Below, one piece after another: positions 3,601-25,783 of a stretch of DNA of 27,733 bases (positions are counted from its first letter, which is position 1; each line of letters starts with the position of its first letter). Source of the stretch: a virus. Below the pieces are notes generated by a model. The model was not told the DNA's origin. It worked only from the letters and a program-made list of their open reading frames with translations, and searched no databases. The DNA is taken from positions 1 to 27,733 of IMG/VR virus record IMGVR_UViG_3300021964_000403; one strand, given 5' to 3'. A program made the translations under genes and the position numbers.

Positions 3601-4120
3601 AATAAAAACAATTAGCGATGAAATTATATATCATCCTGTAAAATATAAAGTTCTGTTTGGTAGTAAAGCGGCAACAAAGTTACAGGCAGAATTTAAAGTA
3701 GTCAAAAATCCAGGTAAGGCAATTAATGACAATAATCTTAAAGTTAGAATAGTAAATGCAATCAATCAATTCTTTGCTATAAGTAATTGGGATTTTGGTG
3801 ATAGATTTTACCTCAGCGAACTGACAACTTATGTTATTAATTCAGTTTCTCCAGATGTAACTAACTTTGTTATTTTACCTAGATCATCTAATCAAGCATT
3901 TGGTAGCCTGTTTGAAATACAGAGCAAACCGGATGAAATATTTGTCAGTGGCGCTACTGTAGATGACGTAAAAATAGTTACTAGTATCACCGCTGCAGAA
4001 ATTAGAGCCAGCACAGGTTCTATTGAAAGTGATGCATCCTCGAATACGAATACAAGTTCAACAAATTCTAGTTCTACAACTAGTTCATCGAGTTCAAGCA
4101 GCGGAGGCTCTAGTTACTAA
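632..4120 (+). CDS. 6: Baseplate wedge protein, gp6-like, enlarged
   Basis: This 1162-residue protein is a gp6-type wedge subunit. In T4, gp6 dimers form the inner ring joining the wedges of the baseplate. Residues 1-130 contain the typical start: a helical region (NADFKSYDFENIRRVIISYL), then YMALVDAVAFLGQSLSFRLDLASRE and RKESVLRIARMLSY. The C-terminal region at about 1010-1120 (KVLFG..., NPGKAINDNNLKVRIVNAIN, then DRFYLSELTTYVI) matches the C-terminal ring domain of the family. T4 gp6 is about 660 aa, so the middle is greatly expanded. It includes a calcium-loop-like DTDSDGVVDDPD at residues 821-832. The last 33 residues are a Ser/Thr tail with 18 Ser. A weak ribosome site, TAGGA at 618-622, precedes the start. 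The stop overlaps the next start by one base (TAATG), which suggests translational coupling. Confidence 0.9.
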   Translation: MSTTSRQNNLILNQDWTRIYQTFKNADFKSYDFENIRRVIISYLRENYPEDFNDYIESSEYMALVDAVAFLGQSLSFRLDLASRENFLELAERKESVLRIARMLSYNAKRNIGSSGLLKFNSISTTEQIIDSNGRNLAQQTVKWNDPTNTNWAEQFILILNTAMADNTEFGRSEGAASIQGIPTEQYRFRTTSTDVPLFTFTKSVAGRNMAFELVSTAFKDSETIYEEAPTPGNQLGFVYRQDGKGPGSANTGFFLQFKQGSLEFADFSIATPTTNETLAVESNNINNNDVWLFSLNSAGGQDKQWTRVDTLTGNNIAYNSIVGNIKDIYSISTQPNDKINLVFADGTYGNLPQGSFRTYYRVSNGLEYTIAPTDMRGISIDVNYRNKSGIAHTLTINLGLQYTVNNAAATESVDTIRQNAPALYYTQNRMVTGEDYNLAPLASSQNILKIKAVNRTSSGISRNYDIVDASGKYSSINVFADDGYIYKQDSERSLFLKFSSKTEIINFLRQNIEGAFSDKDLYNFYITKYERVTFSEQTTVWTAVTNDFNRGTGYFTNTVDNSLLKVGTYSTSSLKFLTVGSSIKFVAPAGFHFMSNQDNKLMEGPANHPGSKTYIWTKVISIAGDGTNAGRGALASGLGPITFNENIPSGAVATNIVPKFVNDLNVALETEITNLMFANLNFGLRYETSDTSWKIIQNQNLDLINNFSLGKAGDSTNENLDASWLFAFVKENDQYIVRIRTLNYVFGSVEQNRFYFDKNEKAYNNLTGSIEKDTINVLGINSQTTSTSALGRDFKFQITDTIEFDDGYESSKEIKLSFNDTDSDGVVDDPDSFIQVAGQDVEANYLFFVRSTDEYGTDILNLFDNTNNIILIRTRESLININDYDDGQLIYFSDVSENRVKRVDRNTNTLNLDSSYVAYIGRRNLKFQYTHSASDDRRIDPSVTNIVDIFLLTRNYDTAYRNYLAGSITEPVAPTTDSLRIEFGGKLNEIKTISDEIIYHPVKYKVLFGSKAATKLQAEFKVVKNPGKAINDNNLKVRIVNAINQFFAISNWDFGDRFYLSELTTYVINSVSPDVTNFVILPRSSNQAFGSLFEIQSKPDEIFVSGATVDDVKIVTSITAAEIRASTGSIESDASSNTNTSSTNSSSTTSSSSSSSGGSSY
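3092..3127 (+). other. Calcium-loop-like motif in gp6
   Basis: These bases encode DTDSDGVVDDPD (residues 821-832 of the gp6-like protein). Its Asp positions 821, 823, 825, 829 and 832, with Gly826, match the DxDxDGxxDxxD pattern of thrombospondin type 3 and EF-hand-like calcium loops. It lies in the expanded middle of the protein, which has no counterpart in T4 gp6. Metal binding is inferred from the motif alone. Confidence 0.45.
4017..4117 (+). repeat. Ser/Thr low-complexity C-terminal tail of gp6
   Basis: The final 33 residues of the gp6-like protein are low-complexity: 18 Ser, with Thr, Asn and Gly, including a run of seven Ser. The DNA is an imperfect repeat of AGT/TCA/TCT-type codons. 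Such tails are usually disordered and may act as flexible linkers. The segment abuts the start of the giant gene and contains GGAGG at 4103-4107, the only plausible ribosome site for that gene. Confidence 0.7.
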
Positions 4121-7100
4121 TGGCAGATAAAGTTTATCCAAATAGTCAGTTACCAATTAGAAAAAGTTCTGAGCTTCTTCCTCAAACTTTTAGAACTAAA
4201 AATAATGACAAGTTTTTGTCAGGTGTTGTTGATCCTCTAATACAGCCAGGAGCCTTAGATAAATTATCAGGTTACGTTGGTAGAAGATTTGGTAAGACCT
4301 TTGACGGTAATGCCGTATATCTAGACACTGATAATACTTTAAGAAGTAGATATCAATTAGAACCAGGCATCACGGTTGAAAATAATCAAGTTGTTACTAA
4401 GTTTTATGATTACTTAGACTTAAAAAATATAGAAACCTTTTTTGGTAACACTAACGAAAGAGATGATAAAACTACGTTTCAAGAACACTACAGTTGGAAC
4501 CCTCCTATTGATTGGGATAAGTTTATCAATTATAGAGAATATTATTGGATACCGGCAGGCCCGCCTACAATATCTATATTCGGGCAGGCCAATACTGTTC
4601 AGTCTACTTATAAGGTAAATCAAGGAATAGGTTCATCTTGGGTATTCACACCAGATGGATTAACAAATAATCCTACGATTACTTTATACAGAGGACAAAC
4701 ATATAATTTCAATATTAATTCTCCCGGAGAACCATTTGTTCTTAGAACAAATTATGATACAGGCAGTTTAAATTATGAACCTTTAAAAACTTATTTTCCG
4801 GGTGACCTTGCAGTTTATGATGGAAAGTTGTGGCGTGCATTACAAGAAATATCACCGTTAGATGGAAGTAGTATAGATATCAATTCACAAGATTGGGAAT
4901 TGATCGATAGTTCGGCAAGTTTAAGCAGTTTGATATACAACAATGGTGTTACAAATAACAGCATTGAATCTGGAATACTTAAATTTGAGGTTCCTCAAAA
5001 TGCTCCAGATGTAATTTATTATCAAAGCGCAACAGATCCAAATAGACTAGGAAGATTTATAATTGCAGATATAGAGTCTAATACAAGTATAAATGTTGAG
5101 ACAGAAATACTAGGTAAGACTTTTTATACTTCAGCAAATAATATTGAACTGTCAAACGGTATGATAGTTGAGTTTCAAGGGCAGGTTCAATCAGAAAAGT
5201 ATGCTACTGATACTTGGCTAGTTGAGGGTGTGGGCAAGGCAATTAATTTAATTAGATTTGCAGATTTAATTCCACCATCAATAAGTGTTGATAATCCTGA
5301 AATTTTATTTGATAATCAGGGTTTTGATACACAGCCATTTGATGATGCTACACTCTATCCCGGAACTAAGGATTATGTTACAATTAATCGCAGCAGTAAG
5401 GATTTAAATCCATGGAGCAGATATAATAGATGGTTTCATAGAAGTGTTTTAGAGTATTCCTATAATTTAAGAAATAGTGATTTCGATGCACTTGAAACTT
5501 CAAGAGCAAAGAGACCAATTATCGAATTTCATCCAAATGTAAAACTTTACAAACATGGAACTATTGCAAAAGCCTCTGTTGATTATATAGATGATTACAC
5601 AACAGACGTATTTTCAACTATTGAAGGAAGCACTGGTTATTCGGTCGACGGCGAGTCATTATTTGAAGGTGCAAGAGTATTGGTCACCGGAGATACAGAT
5701 AGTTTAGCAAACAATAGAATATATGAAGTTAAGTTTATTGTTCACAATGGAAGAAGACAAATTACCTTGAAGGAAACTGCTGATAGTAATCCTACAATAA
5801 ACCAATGTGTTTTAGCAAGTCGAGGAACCGTTAATTCTGGAAAGATGTTTTATTTTGATGGAACATCTTGGAATCGTAGTCAGGATAAAACCACAGTTAA
5901 TCAAGCACCGCTGTTTGATGCATTTGACGAAAACGGAGTAGCACTTGACGACCCACAAACTTATCCTGTAAGTAGTTTTATTGGTAGCAAAATATTCAGT
6001 TATAAACAAGGAACTGGCCCTATCGATGCTGAACTAGGTTTTGCTATATCATATCAAAATATTGATAATGTAGGAGATATACAGTTTGATTGGAATTGGG
6101 AATCTGAACAGTATTCATACACTATAAATCAACAGTCCTTTACAAATAAGATAAACAAGAATTATTTTAAAGTAAATGATGGTTATGAAAACGGTTGGGT
6201 AAAATCAAACTACAAATATCTACAACCAATCGTTGATAGTAAAATAGTAGTAAATGAATCAAACAGTATTGAATTTAATACTGTCGATTTTGCATCTATA
6301 AATGAATCTGCTGAAATTATTTTTTATCTAAATGGAAATAAGTTATTAGAAGAATATACAAGAGATAATAATACATTTACATTTTCAACTATATTTAAAA
6401 CTAATGATGTTATCACCATAAAGATTGTAGATGATATTATTCCAGACAATGGATATTATGAAATTCCAGTAGGCCTAGAAAAGAATCCGTTGAATGAAAA
6501 TCTTTCAACATTTACTCTAGGGCAAGCAACAGACCATATCAGAACAGGTTTAGAATTTGATAATAGATTTAAAGGAAACCTACCTGGAGTTTCTAATTTA
6601 AGAGATATTTCAGATTTTACTATAAACTGTAAAAGATTTTTAAAACATAGTGGTGTTGCAGCATCTGCAACTCTTGTGTTATGCGACAAAGAAATTAATA
6701 TTGTTAAATCTATTCAAAATGCTAAAAAACAATATTCATTATTCAAAGAAAATTTTATAAAAAAATCTTATGAAATTGATAATACTGATAGTATTCCTGA
6801 TCTGGTAGATAGTATATTAGAACAATTGAATAAAACCAAAAATTCAAATAGTGCATTTGCAGACAGCGATATGATCGGAACAGGAGCATTTACCAAGATT
6901 GAAATCGTCGTTGATGATCCAGGCATTAAAACATTTACACTTAGTGAAACTTTTGATTTGAAGACACTGAGCAGACGTGCGGTATATCTGTATAAAAATG
7001 ATCAGCAATTATTACACGGTCGAGATTACATATTTGATTCTGAATTTTCTTTTGTTACAGTTACAATTAATTTAGTAGAAGGCGATAGGCTAGAGATAAG

Positions 7101-10100
7101 AGAATATGTTTCGACAGCATCTTGCCACATACCACCAACACCAACTTCAATAGGATTGTATAAAAAATTTACTCCAATGAAGTTTACAGATGACACTTAT
7201 AGAGATTCTCAGGAAGTAATTCAGGGTCATGACGGTAGTATCACAATAAGTTATGGAGACTTCAGAGACGATGTGCTACTAGAATTAGAATACAGGATCT
7301 ATAACAATATAAAACAAGAATATGATCCATCTGTATTTGATATTGATGCAAATCTAGGAGGTTACTATGGCAATTCTGTGTTTACCAAAGCAGAATTTGA
7401 CAAGGTTGCTAATCAGGAATTTTTGCGTTGGATTGCAAATACAAATTTAGGTTATACTAATAACGAATACTTTAAAGATACTGAAACGTTTACCTATACC
7501 TATTCTAATATGACTAGTCCAGACGGACAAGAAAATTTGCCAGGATGGTGGAGAGGAGTTTATCAGTATTTTTATGATACTGACAGGCCACATCGCTGTC
7601 CGTGGGAAATGTTAGGCTTTTCAGAGCAACCAACATGGTGGGAAGAAGAATACGGAGCAGCACCTTATACCAGTGGTAACCTAATCCTTTGGGAAGATAT
7701 TAGGGACGGCATAATCCGTCAGGGTGACAGGAAAGGAACCTACAAGAGATATGCAAGAACATCGATCATGCGTCATTTACCGGTTGATGAACATGGCAAT
7801 TTATTAAGTCCACTGGACAGCGGATTAGCAGGAAATTTCACACTAACAAATAACAAAGGTAGTTTCAAACTTGGAGATGTTTCACCAACTGAATATGCTT
7901 ATAGAAGTAGTTCTGAGTTTCCTTTTGTGATTGTTTTAGCATTGTGTTTGCTTAGACCTTTTGAATTTATTATTGCAAATTTTGATAGAAGTAAAACCAA
8001 ACGCAATATTGCTAATCAAATTATAAGTAAAAATACTGGTGTTTTTATTACTCCTTCGGAAATACAATTACCAATTACAGGACAAACATTTACCAGCGGA
8101 TTAGCATTTTATCTTTCTAGTTATATTAAATCTCAAGGCAGAAGTGTAACCACCGCGCAGGAAACTCTTAATAATATAAATGTTAGATTAACAAATAGAT
8201 TAAGTGGGTTTGTTGACAAATCACAGCAAAAATATCTTTTAGATTCTAAGAGTCCGGCTGCATCTAGTTCTAGCATATTCATTCCTCCAGAAAATTATAA
8301 TATTTTCTTTAATGTTTCAACTCCGATTCAGACAGTAAGTTACAGTGGTATTATATTTGAAAAAACTGAAGGCGGATGGATAGTAAATGGGTATGATGAT
8401 GTTAACCCATATTTTACCATTTACCAAAGTATTCCTAATCAAAAGGATCCGACTATATCAGTCGGAGGAGTAAGTGCAACATTTGTTAATTGGAGTTCTA
8501 ACCAATTATATAACAATGGTGCTATAGTTCAATATAGAAACATGTTCTATAGAGCAAAACTAACACACACAAGTGCAGACTCTTTTGAGAATGATAACTG
8601 GACCATGTTGCCTGAATTGCCGATTATTGGCGCAGCAACAGCACAGCGTAGAAGAAATTTCAACAGATTCAGAACAATAAATGTTAGTTACGGAACAACA
8701 TTTAATACAGTCCAAGAAGTAGTTGACTTCCTACTTGGCTATGAAGAATATCTAAAATCACAAGGATTTATATTTGACAATTACAGCAGTGATAATCAAG
8801 CAATGCAGGACTTTACAACGTCTGCAAAAGAATTTATGTTCTGGACTCGTAACGAATGGGCAATAGGTTCATTATTAGCAGTAAGTCCTGGTGCAGAACA
8901 AATTAAGATTACTGTTCCTGTTGGTGTTGTAGATAATTTATTAGATGGGTTTTACGATTACAACATTCTTACAGATACCGGCGAACCTATGGAAGTAAAG
9001 AATTTTGATGTGAACAGAGAATTTCAAACATTTACTTTTAACATAAATGATACTACAAAAGGTTTATTTTATCTTAAATTAAATTATGTTCTTAAAGAGC
9101 ATGTTGCTATTTTTAATGATAGAACAGTATTCAATGATGTTATATTTGATAAGCCTACAGGATATCGTCAGGAAAGAATTAAGGTAAAAGGATTTAGAAC
9201 TGTTGATTGGGATGGTGATTATACTTCTCCTGGATTCCTGTTTGACAATGTGAATATAGATGGCTGGCAGCCGTTCAATGATTATAAACTTGGTGATATA
9301 ATAAACTACCAAGGAGTAAATTATACCAGTAAACGTAACCATACTAGTCTAGAAGAGTTTAATGCTAATAATTGGACGGTGCTAGATTCAACACCGGATA
9401 AAAAACTAGTTCCTAACTATGATTTTAAAATTAATCAAATGGAAGATTATTTTGATGTTGATACAGAAGGATTATCACAGAGTCAAAGAGATCTGGCAAG
9501 ACACACAATTGGGTATCAAACAAGAACCTATTTACAAAATTTAGCAGAAGATGAAGTAACACAGTTTAGATTATATCAAGGTTTCATAAGAGAAAAAGGA
9601 ACAAATAATTCATTAACAAAGATATTCGATAAGATAGGTAGAACATCGAATATTGGTGTTGATCTAAAAGAAGAATGGGCATTTAAAGTAGGAGAACTTG
9701 GAGGAACAGATCAATCTAAGGTATTAGAAATAAAGTTAGATACTGACAATTTTGTAATAAATCCACAGGCGATTATAGTAACAGATGGTAACACCAATAC
9801 ACAAAATACAAATAGATATTATGAAATTAATCAATCTGATTTTGATTATGCTCCGATACCATACACTACAAATATAAATCCTGTTACAAGTGAAAAACAA
9901 TATTTAAGAACTGCCGGTTATGTAAAGGTAGATCAAACAAAATATATTGTAAAGACTCGTGACGATATTCTTAATATAGATATTAACAATGTTAATAACA
10001 ACGATCACATATGGATTACTTTTGATAAACAGGATTGGACTGTTTTAAGAGTGAATTTTGTAAATGAACTTCCTATTACAAATTTAACAACAGAAAAAAA

Positions 10101-13100
10101 TGTTGTAACACTTACATTTGGTAAACGACATAACTTATCTGTTGATGATATATTAGGGTTAAAAACATTTGGAGATGTAGACGGGTTTCATAAAATAACA
10201 ACGGTGACCGAATTTACCTTAACTTTTGAAACCGAAAAGCCACCTGCAGATACAAATTTTGAACCTAGTTCTCTTAACTATCCGATACTTTTAACAAATG
10301 CAAGATTTAGCAATTACGATTCTCTAAATTTAGAAACTACAGCATTGTTAGATAAAAAATCTAAGTTGTTTATAGATAACAATAAAAATAATAAATGGGA
10401 AGTTGTTGAAAAAAATAAAATATATTCTGCTAAAAAAATAGAAGCATTTGGTAGCACAACACCTAAGCACACAGGTAAAAAAGTTCTTTATTCTGAAGAA
10501 TTACAACAAACGATAGCATCACTTACTGGTTCAAATATTGTAGTTGTATATGTAGAAACTTCAACAGGATTAGCGGTAAAACAAATACTTGAGCCACTGT
10601 CGGGTTTTTCGACTGCTGTTTCAAATACATTTGGAGAGGAACTTGCTATTTCTCCTGACAACACTTGGTTAATAGTTGGTTCACCTAGTGCAAGCGGTGT
10701 TACATCTAACTATAAAGGAATTTTTAGCACATATAAAACCTATGCTACGAATGACATAGTTTTATATGAAGGAAATTTATGGAAAGCCAAAAAAACTATC
10801 CTAGGAGATGGAAGCTCAATTAATGTTTACACTGAAGATTGGGAACAGGCTTATAATATAGAAGCCATTGAGACCGGAAGTAATTCAGGATACCCGAATC
10901 AGGGCATGATAAGCATATACAGATATAGTGCAAGACAATGGAATTATGTAGAAAGTTTTGTAAGTCCAAGACCAGACGGTGACAAATTCTTTGGTAGTAA
11001 AGTTAGTTTAGCAAAAACAGCAACAGGTTATACCATGGCTGTAAGTGCCCCAGGAACAAATAATACTAAAGGTAGAGTTTATCTCTACAATTACACAACG
11101 GCAGAAGGCTGGCAATTAATACAAAACAAAGATTATAGAGGTTTATACCAGCCAGGCGGCACATTACCGGCAACACAAATATTAGCAGGTAGAACATACA
11201 CAATTGATACACTAGGAACAACCGATTTTATAACTCACGGTGCGTTGTCAAATACACCCGGACAGGTTTTTGTTGCCACTGATAATGGTGCAGGTAGCGG
11301 AACCGTAACAGTTGAAAGTTACTATCCTAAAGGATCAATTGTTTATCATAATGGATACTTGTGGCAAGCACTTGAAGATAACGAAGGTGACGGAAGCACA
11401 ATAACACTTTTAAGTAATGACTGGATTAGACTGGATGAGGTTAATACCAATGTTTCATTACCAACGAGTGTTAGCATAGAAGATGACGGTTCAACCCTGG
11501 CTTCAGGAGTATTATCAGAAGATCAACTTGCTGAAATAGTTAAAGAAGGCGACAAATTTGGTAGTTCCTTAGCATTCAATAGTGATGCATCTACTCTAAT
11601 AATAGGAGCACAAGAAGCAGATGGTCAATATTTTCCAAATTTCAAAGGTAACTGGCAGGCAAATTTTGAATATGCAGAAAATGATGTTGTAAAATATCAA
11701 GGAGGCTATCACAGGTTAGAAAATCTAGGTGCTACAGCAGTCGGTCCAGATAGCACAATTAGAAGTTTTAATCAACCGCCAGATGAAGGTGAACCTTGGG
11801 TAAATGTAGGAGATAGTAGTTCAGAGCCTGTTGGTAAGGTATTTGTTTATAATAAAAACGATAAAGGTTTTTATACACTCAAACAAACCATCACTGCTGA
11901 GAGCCTATCTGAGATAAGCGATATTGACGATGATGAAACAATTAACACAGGAGACTTGTTTGGTTATGGGGTTGATCTTGACCATACAGGTAACACCTTA
12001 GTAATTACAAGTCCTAGGGCTGATAAAAATTTACAGAATCAAGGAAGTGCATATGTGTTTAAGTATGAAACTGATTCGACTGCAAGCCGTTACAGACTGA
12101 AACAAAAAATTGAAAGTTACGGAATTTATCCAAATGAATATTTTGGACAATCTGTTTGTATCACTAATAATTCAAGTAAAATTGTTATTGGAGCAAACAA
12201 TACCGGTTATAGTTTACCGATAAGATTTGATGCTAATAACACTACTTTTGATAATTCTAATACTAAATTTACTACGTATGGAGGTTATAGCGGAGCAGTT
12301 TATGTATTTAATTTAAAAGGGTCACGTTATTTACTGACTGAAAAATTAGAAGATGATCTAAGCACAAATGAATCATTTGGTTACAGTGTGTATTGTTCTG
12401 ATAATGTAATTGTTGTAGGATCTCCTAATTATATAGAGCCTGTTGCACATGGTCCAACATTAGATTTTACTGGTGATGTTACCGGAATGGTAAGATTGTT
12501 TAGAAAGGATGCAAATTTAGAAAGTTTAAAAATAATCGGATCCGAACCAGAAAGAATAGATATAAGAAAAATTAAAAGAATAGCCCTTTATAATGAAAGA
12601 GGTGATACTAAAATACAAGATATTGAAGTAGTTGATCCTGCGAAACTTAAAATTTTAGCGGCAGCAGAAAAAGAAATAGAATACAAAACACTTTACGATC
12701 CTGCAACTTATAATGTAGGAACAGAAGATGTTGTTGTGGATGATACAGTAGCATGGTTTGATAAAAATGTTGGCAAGTTATGGTGGGATATCAGCAAGGC
12801 AAAATGGATTGACTATGAGCAAGGTGACACAGCATATAGATTGGCCAACTGGGGATCTCAAGCAGAAGGTTCAACCATTGATGTTTATGAATGGGTTGAG
12901 TCTAAACTTTTACCTTCTGAATGGTCAGTTCTTGCAGATACAACTGAAGGCTTGCAGTTAGGTGTATCAGGACAGCCTTTATACAATGATGATACTGTTT
13001 ACAGCGTAAAAGAATTTTTAAATGTTAACACAGGATTAGTAACTGAAACAAAATATTACTTCTGGGTCAAAAACAAAGTTACAGTTCCAGAAAATATTAT

Positions 13101-16100
13101 TGGTAGATCAATTAGTGCAGGAGAAGTTGCAGCATTAATTAATAATCCGTCAACATTAGGAAATACCTATATAGCTCTTGCTGACAGTAACAAAATATTC
13201 TTTTATAATTATACTTCATTGACAAGTGATAATTTAAATATTTTAAATTTAGAATATTATAATTCTATTGTAAACAACAATCAAGCACACTATGAATTTT
13301 TACTGTTAACAGAAAACGATGAAAATAGTATACCTAATTTTAAACTTGAAAAGAAATGGATTGATAGTTTAGTTGGTTATGACTTGCAAGGAAATAGAGT
13401 TCCAGATCCTAATCTAACTGATAAGCAAAAATACGGTATCCATTTCCGTCCAAGACAAAGCATGTTTGCTAACAGAAAACAAATTTTAGGTCAAACAATT
13501 GATCATGTAAACAAGATATTATTGGATCAGGCATTTTCTAATATTATAAATTTTGAAAATTTAAATTTAGTTGATCCAGAACCTGCAAAAGAACTGTATC
13601 TGTATGATACTAAAGTTGCTGGAGTTATTGATTTACAAAATGTTGGAACAGTTAGAGTAAAACAGGCAAAACTTTCTGCAAATATAATTAACAATGGAAT
13701 TTCTTCCATTGATATTATAGATTCGGGATTTGGTTACAAACCTCAAGAATTGTTTGATACAGAAGCGCCTGGGCTATATCCTGGACCAAAAGTAACTATA
13801 ACCGGCGATGGCCAAGGTGCTGAAGCAATTACGCATATTGATAATCAAGGAAGAATTGTAGAGGTAGTGATTGTAAATAGCGGCAGAAATTATACCAATG
13901 CAACACCTATTGTAAGACAGTTTTCAGTATTGGTAGAAAATGATTCAACAGCAAATAATTATTGGTCAATTTATGCATGGGATGATATAAGACAAACGTT
14001 TTATAGAAGTGCATCACAGGCATTTGACACTACAAAGTATTGGAATTATAAGGATTGGTGGAAAACAGGATACGGTGAAACTAGCAGAATAACCAAAGAA
14101 ATTTTAGATGTTTCCGTAGAACCTTCTATTAATTTAGAGTTAGGTGATTTAGTTAGAATAAAAGAATATGGTTCAGGCGGCTGGGCAGTTTTTGAAAAAG
14201 TTTCTGAAAGTAGCGATTTGCCATTAGGTAATTATAACTTAGTTGGCAGAAAGAACGGAACAATACAACTTTCGAAAAATCTGTATGATCTAAATGTTTC
14301 AGGTGTTGGGTTTGACAACACTGTAAATTTTGATACAGGACTATATGATTTAGAACCAACAACGGAACTACGTAATATTTTTAAAGCCATTAAAGAAAAT
14401 ATATTCCAAGGGGATTATAAAATTGAATGGAATAGAATATTTTTTAATTCTATTAGATACGTATTGCACGAACAAACTTATGTAGACTGGTTATTCAAAT
14501 CAAGTTTTCTAAAGGCAATACACAATGTCGGAAATTTAAAAGTTGTTCCAAATTATAGTAATGATAACCTAGAAAGTTATCAAAATTATATTGAAGAAGT
14601 TAAACCTTATAGAACCACCATTAGAGAGTATATCAGTAGATATAATCAACTTGAAGGAAACGGTGTTGCAGCAAATGATTTTGATTTACCTGCCGTATAT
14701 TCAACATCTGCTGGTAAGATTATAACTGTAAATGAAAACAGTCCATTAATTTCACAACAACCGTGGAAAACATGGTTTGATAATAGAGGTTATCGTATCA
14801 CCAATATAGAAGTATCCAGCGCAGGCAGCGGATATACAAGTCCTCCTAAAGTAGTAATAGAAGGAAATGGCTCTGAAGCCAGTGCAGTGGCTTTTATTTC
14901 TAGCGGGAAAGTAACTGGTATAAAAATAACCAATAAAGGTAAAGGATACACACAGATACCTAAGATAAGTTTAGTAGGAGGTAATGGTGCTTCAACAGAT
15001 ATTGCGAAGGCTGTTGCCTACCTAGGAGAAGGAAATAGTAGAAGTTTTGAATTAAAGGTTAAATTTGATAGAATCAATAAACAAGGAATATATTCTACAT
15101 TTAGCGATACTCAAACATTTACGGCAACTGGAACAACGGCAGTATTTGATTTAAAATATGCACCTACAGTTGACAAAACAAAAATTAGCATTACAAAAAA
15201 TGATCAAACTGTCTTGGGTAGTGATTACAAAGTATCTCTTTTCACTCAAAAAGTAAATGGATATAGTTTAATTCAAGGGAAAATAATATTTAATGTTGCT
15301 CCTCAACTAAACGATGTAATAAAAATAATTTATGATAAAAATGATGAATTGTTAGATAGTGTCAATAGAATATCAAAATATTATAATCCATCAGAGGGAA
15401 TGAAAGGCAACGAACTAGATCAGTTAATGACAGGTATAGATTATGGCGGTGTTCAAGTTCAAGGCACAACATTTGATGTTACTGGAGGCTGGGACGCACT
15501 TCCTTGGTTTACAGACAGTTGGGATAGTGTAGAAAGCAGTGCAGATTATTACGTGGTTGCAGACGGAAGCACGAACGAAGTAACACTTCCTTATGTGCCT
15601 GCAGATGGACAGGAAATAAACATCTATCTAAAACGTGTCGGTGAAGGAACGCTACCAACAATTGACAATCTACAATACAGCGAAAGCGTGAAGAATCCTC
15701 CAGTAGTTAGAATAGATGATCCGTTCTTCTTTGAAGGCAACGATAGTTCAACTAGTGCTAACCCAAATGCACAAATGCCAACGTTTATTGGTGATGGATC
15801 AACAAATGTTATTGATGTAGGTTCATACATTACTACAAATGACGGCGACATTTTAATATTCCGTCCTATAGAAAGTGACGGTGCAGTTACAATTACAGAT
15901 CCTAATATTGTTGATACTAATTTAGGTGGCGGAACATTATCAGCCATAGACGGTGCGTATACAACCGCAACCGGCATGACGGTAGAAGAGATTAAAATAA
16001 CAGGTGGAAGATTTATAGGTCCTGAACAAGTTCCATCTCCTGAAGAAAATATTCCAGGGCAGGTGTTAGATAATCTAAGTATAAAAGTTTTCCAAACTAC

Positions 16101-18060
16101 GTCCGGCGGAGCAGCACCATTAGAATCGAACGTTATTATTAGTGATGGATCGACATCTATATATGAAATAGGACAAAAAATTATTGAAGATAAATCTGTT
16201 CTAGTATATGTTGATGGAATTAAAAAAGTTCTTAATACAGATTATACAGTTGGAGAAAACAATATTGAATTTGTATCAACTCCAGATGCAGATAAAAAAA
16301 TTGAAATCATCTCAATAGGTATAGGGGGTATTGGATTATTAGACTATCAAGAATTTATAGCAGACGGTGATACTGGACTTTTCCTTACTGATGCACCTTA
16401 TAATATTACATCTAGTGTATTCGTAACTATTAATGGTGTTGAACAAGATGCTGTGTTCAGCGATAGCACAGACACTGTAGATACCGTTGGTAGAACATTA
16501 GTTCAGTTTGGAACAGTGCCTGCTGAAGGAAGTATAATCAAAATAGTTGTTTTCCAGGCAAGTGAAAACGTAGATAGTGGGCAACTTGGGTTAGTAAGAG
16601 TTAATAAACAAACAACAACTCTTGGAACCGGCAGAGTTTACGATTTAGATAATTTTGTAAAACTAACAAGAGAAAGTTCGATATCATCTATGGTGGTTGA
16701 AATAAATGATGTGAAATTAAAAGGCGTGGATACAGTGTATGCTGTTTATGATGGAGTTACCAATGCGTTCACCCTTGGACAAGATCCACTAGAAGCATCG
16801 GGTGCGATTCTTTCAGCCAATATTAAAGTTTTTGTAAACGGTGAACAAAAAACATTTATTCAAGATTATGTATATGACGGAACTACAAAATTATTAACCA
16901 TTGAAAGTAATGTGTTGACCAAAGGAGATATAATAAAAATAGAAAATGATTTGCGTGCAGAATATTCTATCGTCAACAATAGATTACAGATAGCAGAAAG
17001 TGTTAGTTTTAATTCTGGAGATATATTAACAGTAACTTGGTTTAGCGAATATCCGAGTATGGAAATATACAGTGATAGAACAACCGGTGGTAAAGTTAAT
17101 TACGAATTACCATATAAGCCATTAGGAGTTTCCTATGTATGGGTTTACAAGAATGGAGTTAGATTAATACAAGATCAAGATTATAACATTTCATTACCTA
17201 GAGGTGTAATATATTTAGATATAGAAAGCACAGTAGATGACATAATAACAATTACAACCTTTGGAACAGATGTTTATAAATTACCTAGTTCTTACGAAAT
17301 TAGTAAAGATATGTTAAATGTATATAGATACAATAGATACTCTACTTCTAAGTCAATATATCTAACAAAGGAATTAAATTATTTTGATGACACAATCTCT
17401 ATTAGTGATGCAAGCCAGTTATCTAATCCTAATAGAAATAGAAATATACCAGGAGTCATTGAAATTAGCGGAGAAAGAATTGAATATCTTCGTAAGACAG
17501 GCAACACACTTAGCCAACTTAGAAGAGGAACTAATGGAACTGCTATAAAAGAAACACACTCTATAAACTCCTTAGTTGCAGATATTGGACCAAATGAAGT
17601 TATACCGTATAATGATTCACAGGATCGAACAGATTTTGTAAGTGATGGTAGTTCGACACTAATAGGACCTTTGGAATATACACCAGCAAAATCTACGGTA
17701 GGAAGATGGGTATCAACAACAATCCCGTCAGAATACGGTAGATGTGATACAATTGAAGTATTTGTTGGTGGTAAGAGATTGCGTAAGACACCTCTTACAG
17801 TATACGATGAAAGTTTAGGTCCTGTAAGTCCAGGTGCTGACAGAGAATTAGAGGCAGAATTTGCTGTTGATGGCATTGATCCATATATAAGGCTCACTCA
17901 AACGCCACCAGCAGGAACACGTATAACCGTAATTAAAAGGACAGGAAATACATGGTATGATAAAGGAGCATCAAGTGCTACAACCGGCGTTACATTGTTG
18001 GAAAACAATACGTCTATAAGTAAGTTCATTGCTGCTAGAACTACCAGTTTACCTGAATAA
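4120..18060 (+). CDS. Giant 4646-residue wedge-region virion protein
   Basis: A single 13.9-kb open frame starts on the gp6 stop (TAATG overlap, GGAGG 12 nt upstream). Position and length suggest a baseplate or tail structural protein in the gp7/gp8 slot. Residue-level similarity to T4 gp7 (1032 aa) is not evident to me. Visible modules, with approximate residues: a conserved-looking N-terminus 1-170; chitin-binding-like (CBM5/12-type) WxxxxxYxxGxxVxYxGxxYxA modules near 225-262, 1458-1500, 1716-1756, 2197-2246, 2401-2441 and 2508-2565; T7-fibre-like beta modules at 711-772 and 924-997; a Trp-rich core 1130-1310 (CPWEML at 1160, WW at 1173-1174); an FG-GAP-like propeller 2171-2800; GSGYT-type repeats at 3196-3269 and 3561-3638; tandem beta modules 3666-4382; and a C-terminal ISGERIEYL...RRGTNGT module from about 4446. 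No signal peptide is seen. The frame is intact throughout, so it is under coding constraint. Its exact role is unproven. Confidence 0.9.
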   Translation: MADKVYPNSQLPIRKSSELLPQTFRTKNNDKFLSGVVDPLIQPGALDKLSGYVGRRFGKTFDGNAVYLDTDNTLRSRYQLEPGITVENNQVVTKFYDYLDLKNIETFFGNTNERDDKTTFQEHYSWNPPIDWDKFINYREYYWIPAGPPTISIFGQANTVQSTYKVNQGIGSSWVFTPDGLTNNPTITLYRGQTYNFNINSPGEPFVLRTNYDTGSLNYEPLKTYFPGDLAVYDGKLWRALQEISPLDGSSIDINSQDWELIDSSASLSSLIYNNGVTNNSIESGILKFEVPQNAPDVIYYQSATDPNRLGRFIIADIESNTSINVETEILGKTFYTSANNIELSNGMIVEFQGQVQSEKYATDTWLVEGVGKAINLIRFADLIPPSISVDNPEILFDNQGFDTQPFDDATLYPGTKDYVTINRSSKDLNPWSRYNRWFHRSVLEYSYNLRNSDFDALETSRAKRPIIEFHPNVKLYKHGTIAKASVDYIDDYTTDVFSTIEGSTGYSVDGESLFEGARVLVTGDTDSLANNRIYEVKFIVHNGRRQITLKETADSNPTINQCVLASRGTVNSGKMFYFDGTSWNRSQDKTTVNQAPLFDAFDENGVALDDPQTYPVSSFIGSKIFSYKQGTGPIDAELGFAISYQNIDNVGDIQFDWNWESEQYSYTINQQSFTNKINKNYFKVNDGYENGWVKSNYKYLQPIVDSKIVVNESNSIEFNTVDFASINESAEIIFYLNGNKLLEEYTRDNNTFTFSTIFKTNDVITIKIVDDIIPDNGYYEIPVGLEKNPLNENLSTFTLGQATDHIRTGLEFDNRFKGNLPGVSNLRDISDFTINCKRFLKHSGVAASATLVLCDKEINIVKSIQNAKKQYSLFKENFIKKSYEIDNTDSIPDLVDSILEQLNKTKNSNSAFADSDMIGTGAFTKIEIVVDDPGIKTFTLSETFDLKTLSRRAVYLYKNDQQLLHGRDYIFDSEFSFVTVTINLVEGDRLEIREYVSTASCHIPPTPTSIGLYKKFTPMKFTDDTYRDSQEVIQGHDGSITISYGDFRDDVLLELEYRIYNNIKQEYDPSVFDIDANLGGYYGNSVFTKAEFDKVANQEFLRWIANTNLGYTNNEYFKDTETFTYTYSNMTSPDGQENLPGWWRGVYQYFYDTDRPHRCPWEMLGFSEQPTWWEEEYGAAPYTSGNLILWEDIRDGIIRQGDRKGTYKRYARTSIMRHLPVDEHGNLLSPLDSGLAGNFTLTNNKGSFKLGDVSPTEYAYRSSSEFPFVIVLALCLLRPFEFIIANFDRSKTKRNIANQIISKNTGVFITPSEIQLPITGQTFTSGLAFYLSSYIKSQGRSVTTAQETLNNINVRLTNRLSGFVDKSQQKYLLDSKSPAASSSSIFIPPENYNIFFNVSTPIQTVSYSGIIFEKTEGGWIVNGYDDVNPYFTIYQSIPNQKDPTISVGGVSATFVNWSSNQLYNNGAIVQYRNMFYRAKLTHTSADSFENDNWTMLPELPIIGAATAQRRRNFNRFRTINVSYGTTFNTVQEVVDFLLGYEEYLKSQGFIFDNYSSDNQAMQDFTTSAKEFMFWTRNEWAIGSLLAVSPGAEQIKITVPVGVVDNLLDGFYDYNILTDTGEPMEVKNFDVNREFQTFTFNINDTTKGLFYLKLNYVLKEHVAIFNDRTVFNDVIFDKPTGYRQERIKVKGFRTVDWDGDYTSPGFLFDNVNIDGWQPFNDYKLGDIINYQGVNYTSKRNHTSLEEFNANNWTVLDSTPDKKLVPNYDFKINQMEDYFDVDTEGLSQSQRDLARHTIGYQTRTYLQNLAEDEVTQFRLYQGFIREKGTNNSLTKIFDKIGRTSNIGVDLKEEWAFKVGELGGTDQSKVLEIKLDTDNFVINPQAIIVTDGNTNTQNTNRYYEINQSDFDYAPIPYTTNINPVTSEKQYLRTAGYVKVDQTKYIVKTRDDILNIDINNVNNNDHIWITFDKQDWTVLRVNFVNELPITNLTTEKNVVTLTFGKRHNLSVDDILGLKTFGDVDGFHKITTVTEFTLTFETEKPPADTNFEPSSLNYPILLTNARFSNYDSLNLETTALLDKKSKLFIDNNKNNKWEVVEKNKIYSAKKIEAFGSTTPKHTGKKVLYSEELQQTIASLTGSNIVVVYVETSTGLAVKQILEPLSGFSTAVSNTFGEELAISPDNTWLIVGSPSASGVTSNYKGIFSTYKTYATNDIVLYEGNLWKAKKTILGDGSSINVYTEDWEQAYNIEAIETGSNSGYPNQGMISIYRYSARQWNYVESFVSPRPDGDKFFGSKVSLAKTATGYTMAVSAPGTNNTKGRVYLYNYTTAEGWQLIQNKDYRGLYQPGGTLPATQILAGRTYTIDTLGTTDFITHGALSNTPGQVFVATDNGAGSGTVTVESYYPKGSIVYHNGYLWQALEDNEGDGSTITLLSNDWIRLDEVNTNVSLPTSVSIEDDGSTLASGVLSEDQLAEIVKEGDKFGSSLAFNSDASTLIIGAQEADGQYFPNFKGNWQANFEYAENDVVKYQGGYHRLENLGATAVGPDSTIRSFNQPPDEGEPWVNVGDSSSEPVGKVFVYNKNDKGFYTLKQTITAESLSEISDIDDDETINTGDLFGYGVDLDHTGNTLVITSPRADKNLQNQGSAYVFKYETDSTASRYRLKQKIESYGIYPNEYFGQSVCITNNSSKIVIGANNTGYSLPIRFDANNTTFDNSNTKFTTYGGYSGAVYVFNLKGSRYLLTEKLEDDLSTNESFGYSVYCSDNVIVVGSPNYIEPVAHGPTLDFTGDVTGMVRLFRKDANLESLKIIGSEPERIDIRKIKRIALYNERGDTKIQDIEVVDPAKLKILAAAEKEIEYKTLYDPATYNVGTEDVVVDDTVAWFDKNVGKLWWDISKAKWIDYEQGDTAYRLANWGSQAEGSTIDVYEWVESKLLPSEWSVLADTTEGLQLGVSGQPLYNDDTVYSVKEFLNVNTGLVTETKYYFWVKNKVTVPENIIGRSISAGEVAALINNPSTLGNTYIALADSNKIFFYNYTSLTSDNLNILNLEYYNSIVNNNQAHYEFLLLTENDENSIPNFKLEKKWIDSLVGYDLQGNRVPDPNLTDKQKYGIHFRPRQSMFANRKQILGQTIDHVNKILLDQAFSNIINFENLNLVDPEPAKELYLYDTKVAGVIDLQNVGTVRVKQAKLSANIINNGISSIDIIDSGFGYKPQELFDTEAPGLYPGPKVTITGDGQGAEAITHIDNQGRIVEVVIVNSGRNYTNATPIVRQFSVLVENDSTANNYWSIYAWDDIRQTFYRSASQAFDTTKYWNYKDWWKTGYGETSRITKEILDVSVEPSINLELGDLVRIKEYGSGGWAVFEKVSESSDLPLGNYNLVGRKNGTIQLSKNLYDLNVSGVGFDNTVNFDTGLYDLEPTTELRNIFKAIKENIFQGDYKIEWNRIFFNSIRYVLHEQTYVDWLFKSSFLKAIHNVGNLKVVPNYSNDNLESYQNYIEEVKPYRTTIREYISRYNQLEGNGVAANDFDLPAVYSTSAGKIITVNENSPLISQQPWKTWFDNRGYRITNIEVSSAGSGYTSPPKVVIEGNGSEASAVAFISSGKVTGIKITNKGKGYTQIPKISLVGGNGASTDIAKAVAYLGEGNSRSFELKVKFDRINKQGIYSTFSDTQTFTATGTTAVFDLKYAPTVDKTKISITKNDQTVLGSDYKVSLFTQKVNGYSLIQGKIIFNVAPQLNDVIKIIYDKNDELLDSVNRISKYYNPSEGMKGNELDQLMTGIDYGGVQVQGTTFDVTGGWDALPWFTDSWDSVESSADYYVVADGSTNEVTLPYVPADGQEINIYLKRVGEGTLPTIDNLQYSESVKNPPVVRIDDPFFFEGNDSSTSANPNAQMPTFIGDGSTNVIDVGSYITTNDGDILIFRPIESDGAVTITDPNIVDTNLGGGTLSAIDGAYTTATGMTVEEIKITGGRFIGPEQVPSPEENIPGQVLDNLSIKVFQTTSGGAAPLESNVIISDGSTSIYEIGQKIIEDKSVLVYVDGIKKVLNTDYTVGENNIEFVSTPDADKKIEIISIGIGGIGLLDYQEFIADGDTGLFLTDAPYNITSSVFVTINGVEQDAVFSDSTDTVDTVGRTLVQFGTVPAEGSIIKIVVFQASENVDSGQLGLVRVNKQTTTLGTGRVYDLDNFVKLTRESSISSMVVEINDVKLKGVDTVYAVYDGVTNAFTLGQDPLEASGAILSANIKVFVNGEQKTFIQDYVYDGTTKLLTIESNVLTKGDIIKIENDLRAEYSIVNNRLQIAESVSFNSGDILTVTWFSEYPSMEIYSDRTTGGKVNYELPYKPLGVSYVWVYKNGVRLIQDQDYNISLPRGVIYLDIESTVDDIITITTFGTDVYKLPSSYEISKDMLNVYRYNRYSTSKSIYLTKELNYFDDTISISDASQLSNPNRNRNIPGVIEISGERIEYLRKTGNTLSQLRRGTNGTAIKETHSINSLVADIGPNEVIPYNDSQDRTDFVSDGSSTLIGPLEYTPAKSTVGRWVSTTIPSEYGRCDTIEVFVGGKRLRKTPLTVYDESLGPVSPGADRELEAEFAVDGIDPYIRLTQTPPAGTRITVIKRTGNTWYDKGASSATTGVTLLENNTSISKFIAARTTSLPE
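10630..12440 (+). repeat. FG-GAP-like propeller repeats with inserted carbohydrate-binding-like modules
   Basis: Six repeats in the giant protein begin with Phe-Gly (F2171, F2291, F2480, F2614, F2675, F2753) and run as FGxxLxxxxxxxxLxVGxPxA followed by GxVYLYxY, the pattern of FG-GAP (integrin-alpha-like) propeller blades. The canonical DxDxDG calcium loop of integrin blades is not obvious. Between blades 1-2, 2-3 and 3-4 sit single modules of the pattern YxxxDIVxYEGxLWxA...DW (about 2197-2246, 2401-2441, 2508-2565), resembling small chitin-binding type modules. The fold assignment comes from pattern recognition only. Confidence 0.65.
15115..17270 (+). repeat. Tandem T7-fibre-like beta modules in the giant protein
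   Basis: About seven diverged copies of one module lie in residues 3666-4382. Each runs roughly as xDGxTxxFxLxxxP, then VxVYVNGxxxxxxxDYxV, then xIxFxxxPxxGDxIxI. Copies begin near residues 3666, 3810, 3889, 4005, 4078, 4206 and 4313. The layout resembles the beta-sandwich unit at the N-terminus of T7-type tail fibres. Two further isolated copies occur earlier, near 711 and 924. The array is probably an elongated stalk. Confidence 0.6.
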
Positions 18061-22807: not shown

Positions 22808-24814
22808 ATGGCATATATAATTAATAAAAGTGACGGAACAGCGTTTACAACGCTACAGGATTCCACCATTGATACTACATCGAGTTTAACACTTGTAGGT
22901 AGAAACTATATCGGTTATGGTGAAATACAAAACGAAAACTTTCTGTTCCTGCTTGAAAATTTTGCAAACATCACTGCTCCAGCAAGGCCCGTTAGTGGTC
23001 AATTATGGTTTGATACGACCAACAGTGTTTTAAAAGCATATGATGGAACAAAATGGGTAGAAGTGGGTGCGTCTGCAATAAGTGCAGATCCACCACAAGA
23101 TCCTCCATCAGGAGCATTTTGGTTCAAGACAGGTGCAAACACACTTCACGCATATGATGGAAATAGTTGGGTATTCATAGGCCCTGAAACGGCAGCAGGT
23201 TTTGGTGTTACAAGAGCAAGAAGCACCACGCTAGTTTCTGATACATCGGTTGAATATCCAGTTATACTGATTACTGTTGCAGACATTGTTATAGGCATAG
23301 TATCGTCTAGTTCATTCACGATTGGATCATCCAATGCAGTAGCAGGATTTACCACGTTGGATGCCGGAATAACTTTAAATTCAAATTATCTTATAAAAGG
23401 TAACATAAACGGTAATGCATCAACGGCAACTGCACTTGATAACACAAGATTAATTAATGGCGTTGGCTTTAATGGAACACAAGACATTACTATTACAGCA
23501 AACACACAAAACAATCTTCAGACAGGAACTTACCTCATTGGAAATGACTTTGATGGTAGTTCAACTACCGTATGGTCAGTTGACGCTACATCAGCCAATC
23601 AAATTGGCAAGATCGTTGCAAGAAATAGCAGTGGAGGTTTTAGCGCAGGTCTAATTACCGCTGATCTAGCAGGAGACGTTACAGGAAATGTTACTGCGGC
23701 TTCGGGAACATCAAGATTTGATGTAATTGAAGCAAATAGATTTGTCGGCCAAACACTAACAGGTAATGCATTCAGTGCAACAAAATTAAGAACATCAAGA
23801 AATATTAACGGTGTTCCGTTTGACGGACAATCAGATATCACAGTTCCAGCAAGTGCAAGAACACTAACGGATACTGCCCTTGCAGCAAATGTTGTTAGTT
23901 CACAATTAGAGTCGGTGGGGCTATTAAACAGATTAGATGTTAATGGTTTGATAACCGTAAGCAGTAATTTTACGATTGGAGCATCTGGCAGCGACACAAA
24001 TTTAACCGCAACAAGAGTATTACGTTTAACAGCAGATGATGGAACTGACACTTCAGTAGTTGATTTAATTTCACCAGACGTTTCGGTAGCAGCAGGATAC
24101 GGTTCCAGGGGTGCAATCATTCCTAATGTGGATCAGGATCTTGATCTAGGTAAGAGTGCTAGAAAGTTTGATAATGTTCATGCAAACACATTTGTTGGAG
24201 ACCTACAGGGCAATGCTGATACAGCCACTTTAGCAACTACCGCTACAAATATCGCGGGCGGAGCCTTAGGCTCTATCGCTTACCAGACTGCGTCTGGAAC
24301 TACCGCGCTGCTCCCTGCGGGAGCGCCGGATCAGGTTTTAGCATCAAGAGGAACGGTTGCACCGCCAGTATGGGTAGACAATGTTCTTGAATCTGCACAG
24401 ACAATAAAATTAAAAACATCAAGAACAATAAACGGTGTTGGTTTTGATGGAACTGCAAATATCACAATCGCTGACAATACAAAGGTTGCATTAGCAGGCG
24501 ACACAATGACAGGGTTCTTAACTCTTCATGCTAATCCTACGGCAAACATGCACGCCACAACAAAACAATATGTTGATAGTCAAATAAGTGTAGCAATCGC
24601 AGCAATACCAAATCCATATTGGGCTGGAGCAACAACGTTGGCAAATGTTCAGGCAACTTATTCTTCATTTCCGACCGGAACTCTTGTTTCATTCTGGGAC
24701 GAAAGATCGTATTCCAGACCTGCTAACTCAAATGGTGGTAGTGTTAGTATTGTTGATAGGTATAGAAGAAAGGTCGAAAAGCAGGCAAATGGCTCATGGA
24801 TTGATGTAGGATAA
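22808..24814 (+). CDS. Tail fibre protein, fibre paralogue 3
   Basis: This 668-residue fibre has the shared anchor at 1-190 (NENFLFLLENFANITAP, GQLWFDTTNSVLKAY, GAFWFKTGANTLHAY). Its shaft holds three copies of RxINGVxFxGxxDITI, coded at 23447-23496, 23798-23845 and 24422-24469, and a VDQDLDLGKSARKFDNVHA unit. Residues about 480-515 (GGALGSIAYQTASGTTALLP) belong to a fibre motif widespread in marine phages and are coded by an unusually GC-rich, hairpin-rich DNA island. GDTMTGFLTL...MHATTKQYVDSQI leads to a short tip of about 70 residues. No stop or frameshift interrupts the island. The C-terminus has no collar domain, so its receptor is probably different from that of paralogue 1. Confidence 0.88.
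   Translation: MAYIINKSDGTAFTTLQDSTIDTTSSLTLVGRNYIGYGEIQNENFLFLLENFANITAPARPVSGQLWFDTTNSVLKAYDGTKWVEVGASAISADPPQDPPSGAFWFKTGANTLHAYDGNSWVFIGPETAAGFGVTRARSTTLVSDTSVEYPVILITVADIVIGIVSSSSFTIGSSNAVAGFTTLDAGITLNSNYLIKGNINGNASTATALDNTRLINGVGFNGTQDITITANTQNNLQTGTYLIGNDFDGSSTTVWSVDATSANQIGKIVARNSSGGFSAGLITADLAGDVTGNVTAASGTSRFDVIEANRFVGQTLTGNAFSATKLRTSRNINGVPFDGQSDITVPASARTLTDTALAANVVSSQLESVGLLNRLDVNGLITVSSNFTIGASGSDTNLTATRVLRLTADDGTDTSVVDLISPDVSVAAGYGSRGAIIPNVDQDLDLGKSARKFDNVHANTFVGDLQGNADTATLATTATNIAGGALGSIAYQTASGTTALLPAGAPDQVLASRGTVAPPVWVDNVLESAQTIKLKTSRTINGVGFDGTANITIADNTKVALAGDTMTGFLTLHANPTANMHATTKQYVDSQISVAIAAIPNPYWAGATTLANVQATYSSFPTGTLVSFWDERSYSRPANSNGGSVSIVDRYRRKVEKQANGSWIDVG
23447..24469 (+). 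repeat. Three dispersed RxINGVxFxGxxDITI fibre repeats
   Basis: Three related 16-codon units lie in fibre paralogue 3 at 23447-23496, 23798-23845 and 24422-24469. They read RLINGVGFNGTQDITI, RNINGVPFDGQSDITV and RTINGVGFDGTANITI. This motif recurs in tail fibres of many phages. The copies differ at the DNA level, which indicates old duplications rather than recent slippage. Confidence 0.75.
24251..24330 (+). repeat. GC-rich island with three consecutive perfect hairpins
   Basis: I count 53 G/C in these 80 bases (66%), in a region otherwise near one third GC. Three perfect inverted repeats with 3-nt loops follow each other: GAGCC-TTA-GGCTC (24261-24273), CCAGAC-TGC-GTCTGG (24283-24297) and GCTCCC-TGC-GGGAGC (24310-24324). 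All lie in frame within fibre paralogue 3. The encoded peptide is a recurrent marine fibre motif, so the segment may have been acquired by recombination. Confidence 0.8.
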
Positions 24815-24817: not shown

Positions 24818-25329
24818 TGGATATGAATAGACAGACAGCACTAGCACAGTTCAATAAACTTAACAAAAAATTTACAACAGTTCTTGGAATGGTGGATGAT
24901 CAATCTCTGCTCAATCATGATTTATACCTTTATAGAGAAATTGAAATTGATATCGAAAATGAAAATGTCAGAGGCGACTATGACAATTATGAGATTTATG
25001 ATGTAAATGCTACTCCTCTCATGACAGAGGACGCATTAAACACTCTAGCAAGAACAAGAATTACAGACAAGTATCCATTAGAAAATCAATTAAGCATTTT
25101 AGGATCTGCAATTGAAAGATTAGCAGACAATGCCGGAATTGAAGCAGATGAATTAAAAGAAATGAATGATTTTATTGCTGAAGTTAGACGTGCTAACGGC
25201 ATAAGAAAAGAATACTTTAGAAATAATTCACAGGTAGAATACAAAAGCACTGAAGATGTTGCAGCAGAAATTGCAGAAAAATATGAAGGTGCTATTCAGG
25301 AGTATGGTGATGACATACGTGATATCTAA
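24817..25329 (+). CDS. Small acidic protein, possible fibre-assembly factor
   Basis: This 170-residue, acidic, mostly helical protein lies directly after three fibre genes. It begins 2 nt after the previous stop, behind TAGGAT at 24807-24812. Residues about 80-130 contain ITDKYPLENQLSILGSAIER and LKEMNDFIAEVRRANGIRKEY. The pattern of a KYP-type segment before a helical tail is reminiscent of phage tail-fibre assembly proteins, which often end in a related helix. The match is loose and the position is the main support. The alternative ATG at 24823 would remove only two residues. The end of the gene contains the ribosome site and first codons of the oxygenase gene (20-nt overlap), implying coupled translation. 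Confidence 0.8.
   Translation: MDMNRQTALAQFNKLNKKFTTVLGMVDDQSLLNHDLYLYREIEIDIENENVRGDYDNYEIYDVNATPLMTEDALNTLARTRITDKYPLENQLSILGSAIERLADNAGIEADELKEMNDFIAEVRRANGIRKEYFRNNSQVEYKSTEDVAAEIAEKYEGAIQEYGDDIRDI
25298..25302 (+). promoter_or_regulatory. Ribosome binding site choosing the 25310 start of the oxygenase
   Basis: AGGAG lies 7 nt before ATG 25310. The longer frame from ATG 25256 has no such site, and ATG 25304 is only 1 nt away from it. The 25310 start also gives a protein beginning exactly at the first oxygenase strand (MTYVISKYL). Confidence 0.65.
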
Positions 25330-25783
25330 ATACTTGGATAAAGACACAGCAGACAGAGTAAGAGAGTATGCTGAGACTCTTGAAGGACCTAGATGGGTTA
25401 GAAGATCACAACTTACTCCACCTAGGCAAGTTGATGGCTCATCATGTTCATATGATTTTTGCGGTCACAGTCAAATGCCAGGTCACATAGTAGATTTTTT
25501 AAAGTCTATTGCACCGCATTTTGAGGAACATAAACTTGCAGAAATTGCAATCAACAGATATAACATAGGCGATTACCTAGGTAAGCACAAAGACTTTGAC
25601 TATTATAGAAAAAATTTAGTAATCGCACTGCAAGACAGTGAAGACGGTGTGTTAATTGATGACGAAAATGAATTTATAAAAGATTCTGTCGGGCAAGGAA
25701 TATGTATCGACGGTATAGGTCCGGTGCACAGTGTAGCACCAGTTAACAATAAAAGATATTCATTAGTTTATCTTTACGAGTAG
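25310..25783 (+). CDS. 2-oxoglutarate/Fe(II)-dependent oxygenase
   Basis: This 157-residue protein is a compact double-stranded beta-helix oxygenase of the prolyl-4-hydroxylase-like type. Such enzymes couple 2-oxoglutarate and O2 to hydroxylation of a substrate. All catalytic residues are visible: the iron HxD as His93 and Asp95 in NRYNIGDYLGKHKDF, the distal iron ligand His140 in GPVHSV, and the 2-oxoglutarate-binding Arg149 in NKRYSLVYLY. It starts inside the preceding gene (20-nt overlap). The substrate cannot be read from sequence. Enzymes of this family are common in T4-like marine phages, often beside structural genes. Here it lies between fibre genes, so modification of a fibre or of a host-surface component is a reasonable guess. 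A role in DNA modification or host metabolism is also possible. Confidence 0.85.
   Translation: MTYVISKYLDKDTADRVREYAETLEGPRWVRRSQLTPPRQVDGSSCSYDFCGHSQMPGHIVDFLKSIAPHFEEHKLAEIAINRYNIGDYLGKHKDFDYYRKNLVIALQDSEDGVLIDDENEFIKDSVGQGICIDGIGPVHSVAPVNNKRYSLVYLYE

Follow-up and report, generated by a model that had tools for sequence, protein, structure and literature searches.

The put RNA of phage HK022 is a nascent antitermination RNA of about 70 nt, in which both sequence and structure matter (PMC9378689). The promoters of the N4 virion RNA polymerase are hairpins with a sheared G:A triloop, for which -8G and a purine at -11 are required (PMC4496689). DGR target hairpins have stems of 7-10 bp and 4-nt GRNA loops, lie beside the variable repeat and depend on a reverse transcriptase (PMC3240598). 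Palindromic repeat coding elements (PARCELs) are tandem, multi-copy and horizontally scattered (PMC2996958), and short conserved boundary sequences at mosaic junctions are discussed in PMC3029335. The locus described here, a row of short hairpins within a phage tail-fibre gene, shares some traits with each of these systems and departs from each of them in others.

The fibre gene and its GC-rich island

The window, i.e. the whole stretch of DNA analysed, is a 27.7-kb fragment that encodes contractile-tail baseplate genes besides the fibre gene, and of the named phages, the nearest to it are large ones, e.g. Atu_ph07, SCTP-2 and GAP32 (34-37% protein identity). All members of its clade are uncultivated fragments; the phages are presumably marine, as the original prediction and the types of sample suggest. 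The baseplate/tail region contains a single ORF of 4646 aa (4120-18060) with a CBM_5_12 carbohydrate-binding module (E 5.4e-9) in the portion scanned. The protein of 25256-25783 bears the PHROGs label "DNA endonuclease", although an HxD motif followed by late H and R residues, judged by eye, gives it the look of a 2OG-Fe(II) oxygenase; as listed, the beginning of this ORF overlaps the preceding gene, which is read in a different frame, and the true start probably lies near 25310. Few regions of phage genomes are normally as mosaic as the fibre genes. The fibre protein of the window has no match in Pfam. The gene and the hairpins first described in it are the following:

22808-24814, plus strand: tail-fibre gene carrying the island, 668 aa (PHROGs phrog_20242, E 1.4e-23; phrog_1833, E 2.4e-19)
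24261-24273, plus strand: hairpin 1, GAGCC-TTA-GGCTC, perfect in the window
24283-24297, plus strand: hairpin 2, CCAGAC-TGC-GTCTGG, perfect
24310-24324, plus strand: hairpin 3 of the first description, GCTCCC-TGC-GGGAGC, perfect in the window only

The original prediction had placed three perfect stems with 3-nt loops at exactly these positions, and all three were confirmed there. The GC-rich island (24251-24330) has a GC content of 66.25%, as predicted, compared to 35.0% for the window; the top 80-mer of the window by GC is this same island (67.5%, start at 24253), with the runner-up at 52.5%. The surroundings had been described as near one third GC, which holds for the window as a whole but not for the flanks within the fibre gene (about 0.38).

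Folded as RNA, the segment 24248-24331 has an energy of -39.2 kcal/mol. Resampling of synonymous codons from those of the gene itself resulted in -20.9 ± 3.7 kcal/mol, with 0/2000 reaching the value of the island, and GC-matched synonymous controls resulted in -28.6 ± 3.3 kcal/mol (island p 0.0025). Three loop-3 stems were obtained in 0/2000 sequences in each of two resampling controls, and in 8/2000 when the synonymous codons were permuted within the segment. The folding-energy comparison with codon-shuffled controls, which had been proposed together with the hairpins, shows that the island folds more strongly, and the view that the stems are unlikely by chance is borne out against synonymous controls, the GC-matched ones included.

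A second trio of loop-3 stems occurs in the same fibre gene (23535/23555/23594). Between 22840 and 24324, the window's copy of the gene has 7 perfect loop-3 stems of at least 6 bp versus 0.63 expected, other loop lengths being at chance. This excess is no general property of the gene, as the relatives are without most of those stems.

Distribution and base-level conservation of the island

About 32 uncultivated viral contigs have the fibre gene together with the island. The exact 20-mer of stem 2 is present in 30 contigs, with stem 1 in every one, and a 17-mer of stem 2 adds two contigs only, both matches being within the same fibre gene. Searches with the flanking or upstream protein led to 23 ortholog loci of at least 57% identity (some of them sharing a contig and thus not all independent), and 23/23 have the stem-2 17-mer. 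No intermediate forms of the island were found, and all members belong to one clade. Against GenBank phages, blastn gave no match, and a search with the peptide gave distant matches only, mostly Synechococcus phages, at less than 60% identity. The proposal that the island is a mobile segment was abandoned: it is found in one copy per contig in 20/20 contigs (up to 65 kb), always at the same gene position, other 12-nt island matches within the clade loci are almost nil, and the 20-mer and a 19-mer have 0 matches in 84,980 bacterial and archaeal genomes.

The conservation tests took in 19-25 distinct sequences of this one clade, and their P-values are approximate, the sequences being related. 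Two stretches are referred to in what follows:

24239-24322, plus strand: depressed synonymous change, codons -13 to +14 around GCT 24278 (29 changes on the gene tree versus 102 expected)
24274-24277, plus strand: spacer between hairpins 1 and 2, three of its four bases varying freely (TCN NTN)

On the gene tree (length 3.6 for the local gene), stems 1 and 2 together (11 codons) carry 4 synonymous changes versus 46.8 expected, the lowest equal-sized run of flank codons carries 32, and flank codons average 4.26 synonymous changes each. Base-by-base retention thus covers about 11 codons, and more loosely about 24. In 23 distinct members synonymous change is near zero around both stems, the neighbouring codons standing mostly at identities of 0.3 to 0.7, and the excess synonymous identity is 0.51 at the island versus 0.117 ± 0.063 elsewhere in the gene (maximum 0.33). 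These members were collected by the stem-2 20-mer; stem 1 lay outside that search pattern, and its codons alone carry 4 changes versus 21.3 expected (P 6e-6). Hairpin 2 is identical in all members, those found without using stem 2 included.

The spacer reads TCT, TCC or TCG followed by ATC, ATT, GTT or TTT, and the bases adjoining it are unchanged in all 23 members. The spacer varies to an extent comparable to the flanks, which speaks against explaining its frozen neighbours as nothing more than a block transferred recently. Rare codons of the AT-rich window are common among the frozen ones (GCG 7%, GCC 8%, GGC 14%), the codon GGA at 24320 is invariant in 25/25 sequences and the unpaired base 24280 is invariant as well. 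As far as comparison of sequences can tell, the bases themselves, beyond the protein, appear to be under selection, and this base-level constraint is the firm result of the analysis. A second apparent synonymous cold spot at 24569 has few comparable pairs and consists of preferred AT-rich codons. Another top-ranking interval, at 25283, was rejected, since two reading frames overlap there.

The protein search retrieved 336 viral stretches that encode relatives of the island peptide. In the 103 peptide sequences that do not belong to the window's clade, a perfect stem 1 occurs once and a perfect stem 2 not at all, and the mean fold z-score is -0.21, i.e. no better than chance; in these other phage families the codons for the same peptide vary synonymously to a normal degree. 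Homologous fibre genes that keep the peptide and lose the stems had been named in advance as evidence against a special role of the island. Such genes do exist in the other families, whereas in the window's own clade both the stems and the codons are frozen. In the loci L066 and L070, a GGAAGxIPYQ unit is repeated about ten times per locus and is thus a general building block of some phage fibres. The model of the island peptide shows a linker of low confidence and, after it, a small unit of four strands (pLDDT about 70 there, a weak model); prediction of the peptide structure is poor overall (mean pLDDT 52), and a fold search with it returned no match.

Several readings were tried and dropped. 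An overlapping gene was rejected, as only the +2 frame is open through the core in all members, with shifting ends, and this frame has no start codon in two members read by eye. Programmed frameshifting was rejected likewise, the slippery candidates A_AAT and G_GGC being broken by ACC AAC and GCT/GCA GGC variants. No promoter or terminator was found, with no sigma-70-like site in 24000-24600, and no Rfam family matches the island.

Hairpin architecture and the proposed role of the island

Beyond the hairpins listed above, comparison with the relatives brought in two further features:

24254-24279, plus strand: possible outer extension of hairpin 1, 24254-24257 pairing with 24276-24279
24299-24311, plus strand: alternative third hairpin of most relatives, GCAAC-T[GT]C-GTTGC

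Stem 1 is kept in 23/25 sequences. It is absent from the outlying L208 and L209, which have ordinary codons at the stem-1 site and keep stem 2 together with the next hairpin (about 42 nt) inside diverged DNA. The loop of hairpin 1 is GCA in 21/25 sequences, TTA being found solely in the window. At 24299-24311 the window and the three members closest to it have ACTACCGCGCTGC or similar and do not form the GCAAC-TKC-GTTGC hairpin, while at 24310-24324 the relatives have a shorter stem with a TTCC/GGA core. In the outer helix proposed by RNAalifold, the pair 24256/24277, made of two third positions that are free to change, is G-C, G-U or A-U in 17/20 distinct sequences. Stems 1 and 2 are the shared core. 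There is no fixed multi-hairpin architecture, since L208/L209 have lost hairpin 1 and the form of hairpin 3 is not conserved.

Hairpin 2 is present in the minimum-energy fold of 25/25 members; against GC-matched controls, the fold z-scores of these members range from only -0.1 to -2.7. Conservation of third positions is higher where they are paired than where they are not (p 0.03, uncorrected and marginal); an alternative set, in which one long stem (24307-24327) replaces the third hairpin, separates paired from unpaired positions less well (p 0.18). A double change is seen in one pair only, the covariation score is equalled or exceeded in 53/500 shuffles, and stems 1 and 2 hardly vary. Being nearly invariant, these two stems leave covariation unable to prove pairing. 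The search for compensating changes, envisaged by the original prediction, thus revealed conservation of bases and stems beyond the protein, but true covariation is scarce. The same holds for its suggestion of an mRNA structure: nucleotides, stems and two loops are conserved far beyond the need of the protein, against which the scarcity of covariation has to be set. RNA secondary structure of the island is likely, though not proved.

The letters of the island allow a fold of several short hairpins in succession, each with a 3-nt loop. We propose, with even chances of being right, that the island is a cis-acting nucleic-acid element laid over the fibre codons in one clade of uncultivated contractile-tailed phages, and that it acts as folded late mRNA. 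The element would act on the coding strand; two observations favour the mRNA: where paired third positions alternate between T and C, only G-U or G-C pairs result on this strand, and every member has hairpin 2 in its predicted fold. A protein, RNA polymerase or the ribosome would read the exact letters, those of the loops included, and the fibre message would thereby be controlled in its elongation, stability or translation. The invariant loops and the invariant unpaired 24280 suggest recognition of sequence over recognition of the fold alone, which a DNA site would fit too.

Such a site would be bound or processed as DNA by a protein (a recombinase, a nuclease or a factor of replication or packaging), possibly in the form of extruded hairpins with 3-nt loops; it is consistent with the retention of exact letters, loops included, and with the single copy per contig, as expected of a unique site. 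On the template strand the loop reads C(GCA)G in stem 2 and, in the majority of relatives, C(GCA)G or C(GAA)G in the third hairpin, while on the coding strand the loop of stem 1 reads C(GCA)G; the loops are therefore nearly always GNA on one strand, of the sheared G:A type seen in N4 (PMC4496689). This pattern rests on few free bases, however, since Thr-Ala and Ala codons largely fix the loop letters, and the window's own stem-1 loop, TTA, breaks it. As possible partners, reverse transcriptase (PF00078) was found in 0/20 contigs and GIY-YIG homing endonuclease gave one sub-threshold match only in the 20 contigs, which are fragments, so that absence is no proof. We regard a DNA-level site as unlikely, though it is a rival to be taken seriously. 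Still less probable to us is that the block stays identical through crossover or gene conversion during the exchange of fibre modules. In favour of such exchange, the fibre gene of L118 is a chimera, L108-like upstream and L125-like downstream, that crossed over 95-131 nt before the core; further downstream the gene exists in two unrelated forms, A and B, and homology between them ends about 10-30 nt past the island; and 33/180 pairs have their detected breakpoint in the island core and its first 60 nt. Before about -95 nt from the core, L118 does not differ from L108 over the whole length that L108 covers there, and from -131 nt on it is identical to L125. The main tip-swap point lies just after the TKQYVD motif, at 24560-24590 (about +540 to +566 nt in relatives). 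Yet 96/180 breakpoints fall at +540 to +600, after KQYVD, a region with ordinary synonymous conservation only and no freezing comparable to that of the island. A transferred block would moreover bring its spacer along, yet the spacer varies, and the patch of about 42 nt in L208/L209, diverged on both sides, is short for gene conversion. The idea of a homology block for the swapping of fibre tips, put forward originally, is thus weakened: recombination does occur near the island, but most breakpoints lie ~550 nt downstream. Recombination near the island is real, but alone it leaves the frozen bases with a drifting spacer unexplained.

Slowing of the ribosome by the hairpins and the rare-codon cluster, so that the small beta unit of the fibre can fold or trimerise, would agree with that cluster, with the strong local fold and with the predicted four-strand unit after the low-confidence linker (pLDDT about 70, weak model). 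Many synonymous sequences would serve this purpose, yet the exact letters are frozen, including common codons such as GGA, and the fold search for the peptide was empty; we consider pacing of translation improbable. Recent common origin or chance, without any function, would account for the fact that one clade holds all the members with no intermediates found, but the synonymous sites of the flanks are heavily substituted (the mean of 4.26 per codon at tree length 3.6) and the spacer within the block varies. We strongly disfavour this explanation and find it barely credible.

Returning to the cis-acting element, it is conceivable, although we hold it doubtful, that the hairpin array, being sequence-specific, represents a phage regulatory site, on RNA or DNA, of a new class, one that a factor recognises and that couples the expression or module exchange of the host-recognition fibre to a signal within the gene. 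Freezing at the level of bases is unexpected in a fast-evolving receptor-binding gene. If the island is a cis element, it means that dsDNA phages write signals for regulation or recombination over their host-range genes. The island offers a precise 80-base target for recoding tests.

Comparison with known systems

Like PARCELs, the island is dyad-symmetric DNA inside an ORF of surface-type proteins; unlike PARCELs and the Rickettsia palindromic element, which are multi-copy, it is single-copy and positionally fixed. It resembles the boundary sequences of mosaic junctions in being short DNA kept between diverged phage gene modules, but the main module junction of this gene lies elsewhere. With the DGR target it has in common a GC-rich hairpin with a conserved loop, located within a phage receptor-binding gene or close to one; its stems of 5-6 bp and loops of 3 nt, however, place it outside that group by stem and loop.

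The hairpins of the N4 promoters are likewise short and GC-rich with 3-nt loops of the GNA type, and in N4 the loop letters matter. The island differs in that -8G and the -11 purine do not occur together (CC-GCA-GG, AC-GCA-GT), the loop purine being found only in AC-GAA-GT. As in HK022 put, neighbouring stem-loops would form in phage mRNA and act in cis. HK022 put is found downstream of early promoters and is made of two long stem-loops, whereas the island lies inside a structural gene and consists of several 5-6 bp stems with 3-nt loops, which sets it apart from put RNAs. The invariant loops suggest that the letters of the island are read, in the manner of HK022 put (PMC9378689) or of the N4 promoter hairpins (PMC4496689).
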